Source: Candidatus Hodarchaeota archaeon
GTDB taxonomy: Archaea > Asgardarchaeota > Heimdallarchaeia > Hodarchaeales > Hodarchaeaceae
Length of the DNA: 15,104 nucleotides
NCBI GenBank assembly: GCA_016840285.1
Contig: JAEOSR010000021.1
Location: 1-15,104, forward strand
Direction: 5' to 3'
Shown here: positions 5,936 to 14,539 of the stretch, one piece after another
How positions within the stretch are numbered: the stretch's first letter is position 1
Layout: the number at the start of each line of letters is the position of its first letter
Notes under the pieces: generated by a model
The model's input: only the letters and a program-made list of their open reading frames with translations
Databases searched by the model: none
What the model was told of the DNA's origin: nothing
Translations under genes and position numbers: made by a program

Positions 5936-5954
5936 TCTTGCGCGTAATAATAAG

Positions 5955-6099
5955 GAGACTCTGTTTCCGGGTTCGGAACGAGACCGGGTGTAACCTAGGC
6001 CCTTTGGCCGAGCAATACTCAGCTTTTCGATGTTCCCGTTGGCTCGCGCACAACAGTACAAACCGAAACGGAACCTAACTTAACTTCCGGCAGAGTCTC
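5955..6099 (-). other. Bulge-helix-bulge splice motif that would circularize the 5S rRNA
   Basis: Arms at 6099-6082 and 5974-5955 form a near-canonical hBHBh' motif. Outer helix: GAGACTCTG (6099-6091) with CAGAGTCTC (5963-5955), nine pairs. Central helix: CCGG (6090-6087) with CCGG (5970-5967), four pairs. Bulges: AAA (5966-5964) on the 3' strand and AA, or AAG if G6084 is unpaired, on the 5' strand (from 6086). Inner helix: GTT (6084-6082) with AAC (5973-5971). On each strand the bulge follows the central helix, as in archaeal tRNA introns. Cuts after the second bulge base fall between 6085/6084 and 5965/5964. The expected enzymes are EndA splicing endonuclease and RtcB ligase, neither encoded here. 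No base changes have been compared across genomes, so the motif rests on one sequence. Confidence 0.82.
5965..6084 (-). rRNA. rrf: Circularly permuted 5S rRNA
   Basis: On the minus strand the 3' half of a 5S rRNA comes first: GGAAGTTAAG, then GTACTG and GTGCGCGAGCC. The 5' half follows: GTTACACCCGGTCTC, then TTCCGAACCCGGAA. All five helices form. Helix I is GCUGAG/CUCGGC, closed by a UAUUG loop where a normal gene has its two ends (6023-6007). Helix II is CCUAG (5999-5995) with UUAGG (6078-6074). Helix III is CCGG (5987-5984) with CCGG (5970-5967) around a 13-base loop C. Helix IV is CUGUUG (6056-6051) with CAACGG (6041-6036) under the loop UGCGCGAGC. Helix V is UUUCGGU (6068-6062) with AUCGAAA (6031-6025), and loop E bases GUA and GAAC are present. 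The predicted mature molecule is a 120-nt circle, the usual 5S length. It stands alone, unlinked to 16S or 23S. I know of permuted 5S genes in some mitochondria and permuted SRP RNA in Thermoproteus, but of no archaeal permuted 5S. Confidence 0.93.
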
Positions 6100-6156
6100 G
6101 CATGTTATTAGCGCCTTGTTTGTAAAACAAACCAAAAGGAGCGCTTTCAAGAGTCC

Positions 6157-6168
6157 TTAAATATTTTA
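6157..6168 (-). promoter_or_regulatory. TATA box for the 5S precursor, possibly shared with mptE
   Basis: TAAAATATTTAA on the minus strand would place the 5S start near 6137, about 20 bases before the precursor stem. The box is nearly symmetric. On the plus strand it would start transcription near 6190, in front of the mptE ATG at 6232. It may therefore serve both directions. No BRE is obvious. Confidence 0.55.
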
Positions 6169-11926: not shown

Positions 11927-14539
11927 TTATCCTGTAGAGAAAGTTTCGTCAATAAGATTAAGATCGCTTTTAAAAGCATCTAGATCTCCTAACCACATTG
12001 GTAGGGTTTTCACATGCCTTTCCTCAAAATCAGTTAAAAACACACTGAGTTTTTTCCGTAATTCAGTAGAGGTACTATCTGCAAAAATCGCGGCAAAGAC
12101 CCACTTTGCATATTCAATGGTTAGAACAACATCCCCATGATCTATGGTCTTTAATAACTGTTCACTTCGTACAGCTTCTTTCGCGAAAGAAGTGATTGCG
12201 GAAAAAAGACCAGCTACCAACGCTGGTTCAACTTGTGATTCCGCTGCAAAAGTGTGTGATAATACCGCGCGCCCATCAAGCATCATTACATGGAGAGAGT
12301 CAATCGTTACTTCCTCAAATGAGTACGAAAATTCTCTATGCAGTATAGTCAAGACTTGATTGAATGGGACATCGAGATCAAAAGTTAGATCGTCTAAGAT
12401 TTGATGAATCTCATCAGAACTTAACCCACTTTTCTTCGTTAACTCATCTAATGGTTCCATTTTTCCAGTAATTGCATCACGCAGCTGTTGACCGTTTTCA
12501 ATCGCTGTCCAAGCTTCTTCTATCCTTTGATTTGTTTCTGGATTGTCAACTGGAGCTGTCCCAATTAAGATAATATCTGATTTCCTTTTTAATTCATTTA
12601 GATTGGGAAGTCTTCCTATATCAGAATAAACTGATTTATATTGTATTTTCTCCTCTCCTTCTAAATCGCTTTTCTGTGTTCTGATATGGAACTTCCGTCT
12701 TACTAAAAATAGAATGCTTCCATAAGTCAATATTATAACAAAAGGATGCAACAGATTATAAGGAATGGACAGAAGCCCGAGAAATATACCACCCTCTCCT
12801 TTCCAAATTACAGGAATCCGTTGTAATTCTGGGATAATAAAATGTATATCACCGAAGATACCTTCTTTCCAGATATTAGTATACCATTGCAACCGTTCTC
12901 CTCCAGCGAGCCCTGACGTGAGTGTGATAAATGGAGGTATTAACCCAACACCATTGATGATGAAAATTGGATTATCCAAATTTAGAAATGGTATAAGTTT
13001 ATATAGAGTTTCATCATACCACAAAAAGAGTAGTATGCTGACTGAGGATATCGACAAATATGCAACCAACGTGGTTGTAAAAATACTCCAATTCCATCTT
13101 CTTATTAACAGAATGAACGCTGCACTTAAAATAAAACTTACATAATTCAGAGTAAACCAAAAAAAAGTGCTATATTGAACTGTATCAATATTTCGGGGGT
13201 ACAAACCTGAGACAATGACACGATAAACAAGGAAACCACTTGCTAGTAGGAAACCAATAATTACTCCCATTGCGGCTGATTTTGCGATACTAGCAGAATC
13301 TATCCGCTTAACTGCTAATTTGAGATTTTTAAATGTCTCAATGAGCTTAATTAGCAAATAAATCGAGAAAGGTTCGAAAATATCCAAAAAAAGCACAAAA
13401 AATATTGAAACCATAATGAAATACACAACGAAATAAGAAACTACGAAGATTTGCTCAAAATACTGAACTAAAAAGAGAATAACTGCGAGACCTGACATAA
13501 AAGCACCTACAGTTGATAGACTCTGAACCATTGCAACATATAGTTGATTTCCTAGAAATTTACCTTTTCTTGACAAGCGACTTGCTTTTATAAGATACAC
13601 ACTAAATACAATTGAAGCAATGTAAGCAAAGAATATTTCTAGAAAATGTCCCATCGCAGTCCCTTGTAATAAACTTGGATTTTCAGTTTCTCCAAGTAAA
13701 TGAAGGATTGTCATAAGAAGAAATAGTGTAATGGGGAGGATTGCAATGAGTACTTTCAACAACTCTTTTTCATTTCCCCATTCCTTTTCTTTCACCCTTT
13801 TTGTTATTTCTTGAAAGGGTGATACTTCCATTTCAAACTGTATCTCTTGTAATCGTTGAGTGACAGTCCGTACTGACGTTAATTGCTGTTGCAAATTATT
13901 AATATCATTCTCTAGTGTGTTAATTTCATGAGTGATCTCTGGAATCTCCGTTTCATTGGCAAATTTCCGTTTATTCTGAAGAAGTTTGATTTCCTCCTCA
14001 TTCTGATTTATTAGTCGTTTAAGTGGTTTTTTCTCATTTCGACTCTCACCCCATGTTTGGTATAACAATATCACCATTGAAATCATTGGTGAAAAGCCAA
14101 ACACAAACGCTAGAATAATGATTGGATAATATAAATAATTAACAATTGAATTTATAAAATGTTGGAACATATACTTAACTAATAAAGGTAATCCTGGCAA
14201 TCCAATTGATGTTAAAAAGCCATTTATTGTTTCTTCATCAACAACCGCTGAATCCCATATGGTACTATATTCATTTGTTCCAATAACAGGATAGTACTCT
14301 TGATCCATATATTGAGTTGGATTTGGGACAATAGCGTTCAAAATGCTGGGAAAAATAAAATATGCGAAATAAAAGACAATGAATCCGAAATAGGCACGAT
14401 TAAAGATGATCGCGAAGAAATTCTCATCCTTTCGTCGCGTGAACAGATAAGGCACGAATAAAATAATTATAGGAGAGAAAGTTAAAAGTAAAGAGACAAA
14501 AAGGTTAACTGGGTCTAATAATGGGTCTATTAAAGCCAT
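11927..14539 (-). CDS. Large polytopic membrane protein with coiled coil and C-terminal longin-like domain
   Basis: I know no named family for this 870-residue protein. Hydrophobic segments lie at about 12-33, 46-66, 134-160, 262-282, 298-316, 340-360, 364-386, 420-440, 458-478, 488-508, 525-545 and 585-613. A charged coiled coil (about 168-250) sits between the third and fourth. After the last membrane segment come a 130-residue cytoplasmic-looking stretch, including a possible small helix-turn-helix-like LDELTKKSGLSSDEIHQIL (697-715), then a domain at about 746-865. This domain (SLHVMMLDGRAVLSHTF, LVAGLFSAITSFAKEA, VFLTDFEERHVKTL) follows the same pattern as the longin-like domain of the convergent HerA-like protein. 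ATG 14539-14537 follows AGGATG. It could be a membrane-bound sensor or trafficking scaffold; this is inference from architecture only. Confidence 0.82.
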   Translation of the reverse strand: MALIDPLLDPVNLFVSLLLTFSPIIILFVPYLFTRRKDENFFAIIFNRAYFGFIVFYFAYFIFPSILNAIVPNPTQYMDQEYYPVIGTNEYSTIWDSAVVDEETINGFLTSIGLPGLPLLVKYMFQHFINSIVNYLYYPIIILAFVFGFSPMISMVILLYQTWGESRNEKKPLKRLINQNEEEIKLLQNKRKFANETEIPEITHEINTLENDINNLQQQLTSVRTVTQRLQEIQFEMEVSPFQEITKRVKEKEWGNEKELLKVLIAILPITLFLLMTILHLLGETENPSLLQGTAMGHFLEIFFAYIASIVFSVYLIKASRLSRKGKFLGNQLYVAMVQSLSTVGAFMSGLAVILFLVQYFEQIFVVSYFVVYFIMVSIFFVLFLDIFEPFSIYLLIKLIETFKNLKLAVKRIDSASIAKSAAMGVIIGFLLASGFLVYRVIVSGLYPRNIDTVQYSTFFWFTLNYVSFILSAAFILLIRRWNWSIFTTTLVAYLSISSVSILLFLWYDETLYKLIPFLNLDNPIFIINGVGLIPPFITLTSGLAGGERLQWYTNIWKEGIFGDIHFIIPELQRIPVIWKGEGGIFLGLLSIPYNLLHPFVIILTYGSILFLVRRKFHIRTQKSDLEGEEKIQYKSVYSDIGRLPNLNELKRKSDIILIGTAPVDNPETNQRIEEAWTAIENGQQLRDAITGKMEPLDELTKKSGLSSDEIHQILDDLTFDLDVPFNQVLTILHREFSYSFEEVTIDSLHVMMLDGRAVLSHTFAAESQVEPALVAGLFSAITSFAKEAVRSEQLLKTIDHGDVVLTIEYAKWVFAAIFADSTSTELRKKLSVFLTDFEERHVKTLPMWLGDLDAFKSDLNLIDETFSTG

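Follow-up and report, generated by a model that had tools for sequence, protein, structure and literature searches.

A circularly permuted 5S rRNA gene in Asgard archaea and its predicted processing at a bulge-helix-bulge motif

INTRODUCTION

5S rRNA is nearly universal, and the form of its gene is thought to be conservative. In their study of circularized Heimdallarchaeum genomes, Wu et al. (2022) state that the existing HMM could not predict 5S genes (PMC8813620). The locus described here, from a "Candidatus Hodarchaeota" archaeon, raises the question of whether the gene in these archaea is present but turned inside out. Below, "the window" is the whole stretch of DNA that was analyzed (15,104 nucleotides), and the class and the phylum are those of two "Candidatus Heimdallarchaeota" chromosomes, the phylum being identified as Asgard by the taxonomy of Heimdallarchaeota. 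The sequence shows the locus to be a circularly permuted Asgard 5S gene, and we consider it highly probable (roughly 0.9) that its transcript is cut at a bulge-helix-bulge (BHB) motif by the tRNA-splicing endonuclease and closed, likely by RtcB, into a 120-nt ring. In the open-access literature searched, we found no report of a permuted archaeal 5S. In a survey of 5S insertions (PMC7812874), the strings "permut" and "circular" do not occur, and a 2026 Genome Biology paper names 16S and 23S rRNA, and not 5S, as often undergoing circularization (PMC12918454).

RESULTS

A 5S rRNA gene with swapped halves

On the minus strand of the window, from 6084 to 5965, the 3' half of a 5S rRNA gene precedes its 5' half, in the order GGAAGUUAAG...GUGCGCGAGCC...GCUGAGU-AUU-GCUCGGC...CCGAACCCGGAA, where GCUGAGU is the 3' strand of helix I. 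The 3' half contains GUUAAG, GUACU, GUGCGCGAGCC, and GGGAA and then the helix I 3' strand GCUGAG; the 5' half comprises GCUCGGC, helix II, helix III, and loop C with CCGAAC, and terminates in CCCGGAA. The hallmarks of 5S rRNA are all present: five helices (I to V), a 13-nt loop C with CCGAAC, the loop E arm, and GUGCGCGAGCC. A pattern for the permuted order matches the window once and none of 200 shuffled windows. Joining 5965 to 6084 yields a 120-nt ring, and folding it as a circle gives a minimum-energy structure of -37.6 kcal/mol in which the 5S arms are present. A first-pass annotation made from the letters alone had proposed a minus-strand permuted 5S gene with these same limits, which are exactly those of the ring, and a UAUUG loop capping helix I; the half order, the fold, and related genomes agree with it, as do sequence and fold for the cap. 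The features of the gene are as follows.

5965..6084, minus strand: predicted mature 120-nt ring (3' half, helix I cap, 5' half), from the fold, RF00001 fragments, and a linear-5S HMM
6013..6017, minus strand: UAUUG cap between the natural 3' and 5' ends of 5S on helix I (an AUU triloop if U-G closes), from the sequence, the fold, and a cap script
6157..6163, minus strand: TATTTAA, read by eye as a candidate TATA box for a transcript of its own with a putative start site

At the position matching the candidate TATA box, TATTTAAAGG stands in both Heimdallarchaeota loci described below (L015 and L019).

Because RF00001 is a linear model and the gene is permuted, it scores the locus below threshold: there are two partial matches, at 5965-5989 (19.6 bits, model positions 27-51) and at 6014-6098 (17.0 bits), against a gathering cut-off of 38 bits, which is a detection test and not a biological definition. 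A search of the entire window with RF00001 at E<=1 returned no match. That linear 5S models would see the locus poorly or in part had been foreseen. The further suggestion of a search with the model of permuted mitochondrial 5S, mtPerm-5S (RF02547), fared differently: that model matches neither the window nor any of 58 genomes of the class at E<=1, and we reject membership in its family, while a permuted model of our own (R1, below) does match.

A bulge-helix-bulge motif at the flanks

BHB motifs are the substrate of the archaeal tRNA-splicing endonuclease, which cleaves each of the two bulges between its second and third bases. The flanks of the permuted gene form such a motif, with a 9-bp outer stem, a CCGG/CCGG center of 4 bp, and bulges AAG and AAA:

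6091..6099, minus strand: 5' arm of the outer helix, GAGACUCUG, 9 bp, perfect, with 5963-5955
5955..5963, minus strand: 3' arm of the outer helix, CAGAGUCUC, 9 bp with 6091-6099
6087..6090, minus strand: 5' arm of the central helix, CCGG (leader copy of the helix III strand, lost on splicing), 4 bp with 5970-5967
5967..5970, minus strand: 3' arm of the central helix, CCGG (helix III 3' strand in the ring), from the fold and a fixed-junction script
6084..6086, minus strand: 5' bulge AAG, computed; archaeal BHB chemistry predicts cleavage AA^G at 6085/6084
5964..5966, minus strand: 3' bulge AAA, computed; the same chemistry predicts cleavage AA^A at 5965/5964
6105..6114, minus strand: distal leader arm of the processing stem, GCGCUAAUAA, pairing with UUAUUA-c-GCGC (5950-5940) in the minimum-energy fold of the precursor
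5940..5950, minus strand: distal trailer arm of the processing stem, from the same precursor fold

Splicing of the window in silico joins CCCGGAA to GUUAAG, which is an ordinary, canonical loop B; as CCGGAA occurs on either side, moving both cuts by a common offset would leave the product unchanged. Against a profile HMM built from 28 linear 5S sequences of the same phylum (29 were extracted, and the bacterial-like L084 was dropped), the window scores 31.5 bits unspliced and 73.3 bits spliced, the latter being the best of six cut positions tried. Shifting the downstream cut by -6, -3, +3, +6, or +9 nt gives 55.5 to 65.4 bits, so that restoring the order accounts for the larger part of the gain, to which the exact cut contributes 8 to 18 bits. 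The first-pass annotation was right about the permuted gene; the flanking BHB, the processing mechanism, and the phylum-wide range reported here were absent from it.

Permuted 5S genes in related genomes

A scan of a collection of genome contigs with the permuted-order pattern gave 19 stretches, all of which were read. Two are true permuted 5S genes, L015 (CP070665.1) and L019 (CP070760.1), both from "Ca. Heimdallarchaeota". Sixteen were set aside as ordinary linear 5S genes (or, where a contig ends, the 3' part of such a gene) with a chance second motif, and one (L011) as a protein-like stretch. Neither of the two Heimdallarchaeota chromosomes has an RF00001 match over the cut-off; at E<=10 there are two matches in each, all of them parts of the permuted gene.

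The covariance model R1 was built from 28 permuted 5S genes, namely, the window and 27 sequences from relatives (two from one genome; 27 distinct rows). In this alignment, standard pairs occupy 96.9% of pair cells, compared with 69.9% after shuffling and, at best, 51.6% when the pair partners are slid out of register, and the covariation score is 0.742 versus 0.239 shuffled. Both sides have changed in at least one sequence for 27 of the 33 pairs, with at least four such pairs in each helix. The compensating changes in all five helices therefore indicate that the helices are under selection in the permuted order. They accord with the first-pass opinion that the helices and loops are intact and not in decay, and the permuted form in related genomes with compensating changes in helices I to V had been one of the checks proposed there.

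Distribution in the class and the phylum

Within the class, R1 finds a match at E<=2.4e-13 in 55 of 58 genomes. RF00001 exceeds its cut-off in three (G010, G027, and G038): the G027 match overlaps the permuted locus, that in G038 falls on a 3-kb contig and is to a bacterial-like 5S, and that in G010 (L025) is a linear 5S with an intron. Across the phylum, R1 matches 115 of 227 genomes at E<=1e-11, 60 others pass the RF00001 cut-off but lack a strong R1 match, 23 show nothing beyond a moderate R1 match (1e-11 to 1e-5), and in 29 neither form of 5S was found with R1 or RF00001. Only 4 of the 115 strong-R1 genomes also have RF00001 over the cut-off (the above three and G134, in which the match is bacterial-like by eye), and the permuted and ordinary forms are therefore nearly exclusive. 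In G110, one of the 60, a permuted gene is accompanied by a bacterial-like 5S.

R1 also scores ordinary 5S (single genes up to 55 bits, tandem pairs up to 89 bits), for which reason the counts are given at E<=1e-11 and the sequences were read or parsed. The parse covers 111 of the 115 strong-R1 genomes (not G018, G029, G062, and G169), 19 of the 23 with moderate matches, and G110; of the remaining moderate genomes, G084 was read by eye and G118, G119, and G125 were left out. In a control with two other archaeal phyla, in which few candidates were scored per genome, R1 reached E<=1e-11 in 8 of 586 genomes, and all eight matches are ordinary 5S, six of them being tandem pairs and the other two single genes. 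Such pairs, which in the haloarchaeal control score so in 6 of 294 genomes, at up to 89 bits, give some weight to the idea that the match to the locus spans the junction between ordinary 5S genes in tandem; this is nonetheless extremely improbable, as there is no second half on either side, the halves of helix I are 3 to 5 nt apart, and the unit is flanked by a BHB. No complete 5S gene flanks the locus in the window.

Several arrangements were observed in passing. L024, L084, and L159, bacterial-like by eye, lie on likely foreign contigs binned in G038, G110, and G134. One long contig of G087 (C1:1399892-1400758) carries three ordinary-order 5S copies about 375 bases apart. L029/L224 (G049:C510) is a tandem of two permuted 5S genes, each with its own flanking stem and with a shortened loop E arm.

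Gene context

In the window, the 5S gene is flanked by a divergent MptE-like gene and a metallo-beta-lactamase (MBL) gene, and the order MptE-5S-MBL is kept in all seven near relatives examined, the neighboring proteins being 47 to 90% identical. It is very unlikely that the locus is a pseudogene or an assembly artifact and that the working 5S is an ordinary gene elsewhere: RF00001 finds nothing over the cut-off in the two Heimdallarchaeota chromosomes or in seven related genomes in which the permuted 5S lies on one contig of about genome length, and the permuted form is spread through 115 of the 227 phylum genomes with compensating changes and in a conserved gene order. We therefore reject decay or artifact as a reading of the locus.

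Elsewhere in the window, a tRNA-Val (CAC) gene lies at 1624-1699 on the plus strand, and an 870-aa protein encoded at 11927-14539 on the minus strand has no Pfam or NCBIfam match at E<=0.001; no match to 16S or 23S rRNA was found in the window.

Conservation of the BHB motif

The parse took in 131 genomes and the window, 132 loci in all. When a BHB was sought freely across wide flanks, 49 of the 132 exceeded the 99th percentile of shuffles, and most loci were not clearly above chance; because that search is too noisy, the junction was fixed for the test reported here. The script anchored 116 of the 132 loci and failed to anchor 16. Among the anchored loci, the central helix has 4 bp in 92, 3 bp in 23 (in some of which the script took a wrong register), and none in 1. 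The outer helix reaches at least 5 bp in 65 of the 116 (3.7% of shuffles) and at least 7 bp in 43 (0.7% of shuffles), where the shuffles ignore relatedness; in the other 51 it is shorter than 5 bp at the fixed junction.

The leader copy of the central helix is absent from the spliced product, yet it covaries with its partner across genomes, the leader/partner pairs being CCGG/CCGG, CGUG/CACG, CUGG/CCAG, CUGG/UCAG, CGGG/CCCG, CCAG/CUGG, CGAG/CUCG, and CAAG/CUUG. The leader strand is fully paired in 16 of 27 distinct types, compared with 3.6 in shuffles that ignore relatedness (maximum of 9 in 2,000). In 115 of 115 loci, the spliced sequence scores higher than the unspliced one against the linear-5S HMM. 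Within one subgroup, 17 loci show an outer CCUAGUAAGG stem and, facing CUGA, either UCAG (15 loci) or GCAG (2 loci), followed by a hairpin; because this hairpin reads as an intron at the main junction, processing in the subgroup would need two steps.

Introns and further permutation sites

An extra insert of 30 to 31 nt interrupts loop C in 18 permuted loci, between UCCG/CGGG arms (4 pairs) with 3-nt bulges, and its removal restores CAUCCGAACC. The first search expression itself fixed most of the UCCG/CGGG letters; a looser one gave 19 stretches, which are the same 18 loci with four pairs and one stretch in G103, discarded as an unrelated match. A second permutation site lies in loop C itself (L142, L143, and L144, from G122, G124, and G099, respectively), where in G122 and G124 the BHB reads, by eye, GCG|CUGG|AA^C...CCGG|UC^A|CGC. 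A third, on the 5' side of loop B, was recognized by eye in L161 (G084:C63:7382-7821, minus strand), with a CCGA/UCGG center and AAA/AAA bulges. The loop C introns and the two further sites are consistent with the BHB splicing machinery.

The linear 5S gene L025 (G010:C117:8277-8414) has a 3-4-3 BHB intron, CACG|GA^A|CAGUCU...AGACUG|CGUG|AA^A, exactly at the main loop B permutation junction; as G010 also holds permuted copies, this contig may be foreign to that genome. L025 likely shows the starting point of the permutation, an intron-bearing linear 5S gene, and Plagens et al. also considered an intron-bearing origin plausible for permuted SRP RNA (PMC4731332). Other insertions of about 30 nt were seen near GUUAA in an ordinary-order 5S (L160, G212:C15:39893-40044), possibly another intron, and, separate from the loop C introns, within the loop E arm at the permuted loci L135, L136, and L139.

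These sequences bear on whether the transcript is spliced at all. Linear permuted 5S with open ends has been proposed for the mitochondria of brown algae and oomycetes, and the Asgard transcript might likewise work unspliced, with open ends at loop B: all five helices could form without splicing, and permuted organelle 5S is cited in the literature. We regard this as unlikely. The BHB is conserved and its leader strand covaries, the insert of the 18 loci would break loop C if it were kept, the spliced window has a canonical loop B, and the organelle model RF02547 found nothing in the class.

The helix I cap and the processing machinery

A script allowing one mismatch found a helix I cap in 127 of the 132 loci (a version requiring a G at the base missed 66 of 132); 124 of the loops are 6 nt or shorter, and 80 are UNCG tetraloops. 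The ring might be an intermediate only, from which the cap is excised so that an ordinary linear 5S enters the ribosome. Transcripts of permuted tRNA genes are circularized and then cleaved to the standard form, and archaeal 16S/23S rings were long believed to be reopened (PMC12918454). While this course deserves to be kept in view, we think it the less probable one, since the caps are short, stable looking, and of a kind expected of a loop that is kept, and thus favor a kept ring over reopening. The cap is suggestive, though no proof, of a ring that is left closed and of a ribosome that contains an endless 5S rRNA.

In the seven single-contig related genomes, the splicing endonuclease family (PF01974) is present in all seven, RtcB (PF01139) in six, and uL18 (PF17144) in six; profile searches gave no RtcB match in G001 and no uL18 match in G002.

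DISCUSSION

The route that we propose for the window gene begins with transcription from the upstream candidate TATA box. The tRNA-splicing endonuclease would cut the transcript at the BHB, between the second and third bulge bases on each side, RtcB would likely ligate the ends into a 120-nt circular 5S rRNA, and this RNA would be used in the ribosome. With somewhat less assurance, though we lean slightly in its favor, we suggest that a large part of Asgard has a ribosome with a covalently closed, endless 5S rRNA made from permuted genes by the tRNA-splicing machinery; that the phylum acquired this state long ago, starting from an intron-bearing linear 5S, with permutation at three sites or more; that it may provide a rare marker for the relationships of Asgard and eukaryotes; and that it may be the reason why 5S has been reported missing.

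The swapped halves would explain why standard searches miss the Asgard 5S, and permuted genes would directly answer the case of the unpredicted Heimdallarchaeum 5S (PMC8813620). A gene whose form was thought conservative is inside out in much of the phylum to which the closest known relatives of eukaryotes belong. If the proposed route holds, tRNA-splicing-dependent RNA circularization extends to a ribosomal RNA that is permuted at the DNA level, and the question arises of how an endless 5S assembles with uL18 and uL5. For Asgard phylogeny, the permuted 5S would supply a genomic character of a rare kind, and a permuted 5S model would mend genome annotation as well as the "high-quality MAG" rule, which requires a 5S gene.

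Four known systems invite comparison. In mtPerm-5S, helix I is closed, and we know of no BHB or tRNA-splicing machinery associated with it. Permuted mitochondrial 5S of this type was reportedly described by Valach et al. in 2014. The Asgard gene resembles it in being a 5S gene with permuted halves and differs in being archaeal, not mitochondrial, and in having a BHB.

Permuted tRNA genes depend on BHB processing. They share with the Asgard 5S a permutation at the level of the gene and a circularized transcript (as cited from Soma, 2014); their ring is reopened to the standard form, whereas the Asgard 5S cap looks kept. Circular archaeal 16S/23S pre-rRNA and 23S rRNA (PMC12918454 and PMC7758197) are likewise cut at a BHB by the splicing endonuclease and ligated into a ring, but their genes are in normal order and the Asgard 5S gene is permuted.

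The fourth system, the SRP RNA of Thermoproteus, is circular and comes from a gene with permuted halves (Plagens et al., 2015; PMC4731332). It is likewise a universal structured RNA that was "missing" to standard searches, its leader and trailer form a BHB, and its original ends are closed. In the window, too, the natural ends are joined by a loop, the new ends are internal at the gene level, and a BHB stands at the new ends (4 bp, AAG/AAA, 9-bp flank). For the SRP RNA, the ring and the endonuclease cut have been shown by experiment (PMC4731332), whereas the Asgard case is read from sequence. Permuted RNA made by way of a BHB is itself known, and what appears to be new is that the gene encodes a ribosomal RNA and that the form extends through a phylum. 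The SRP RNA has been described from few species, whereas the Asgard case concerns another archaeal group and a different, ribosomal RNA, the 5S, with 115 of the 227 genomes of the phylum having the permuted form, three or more permutation sites, and additional introns.
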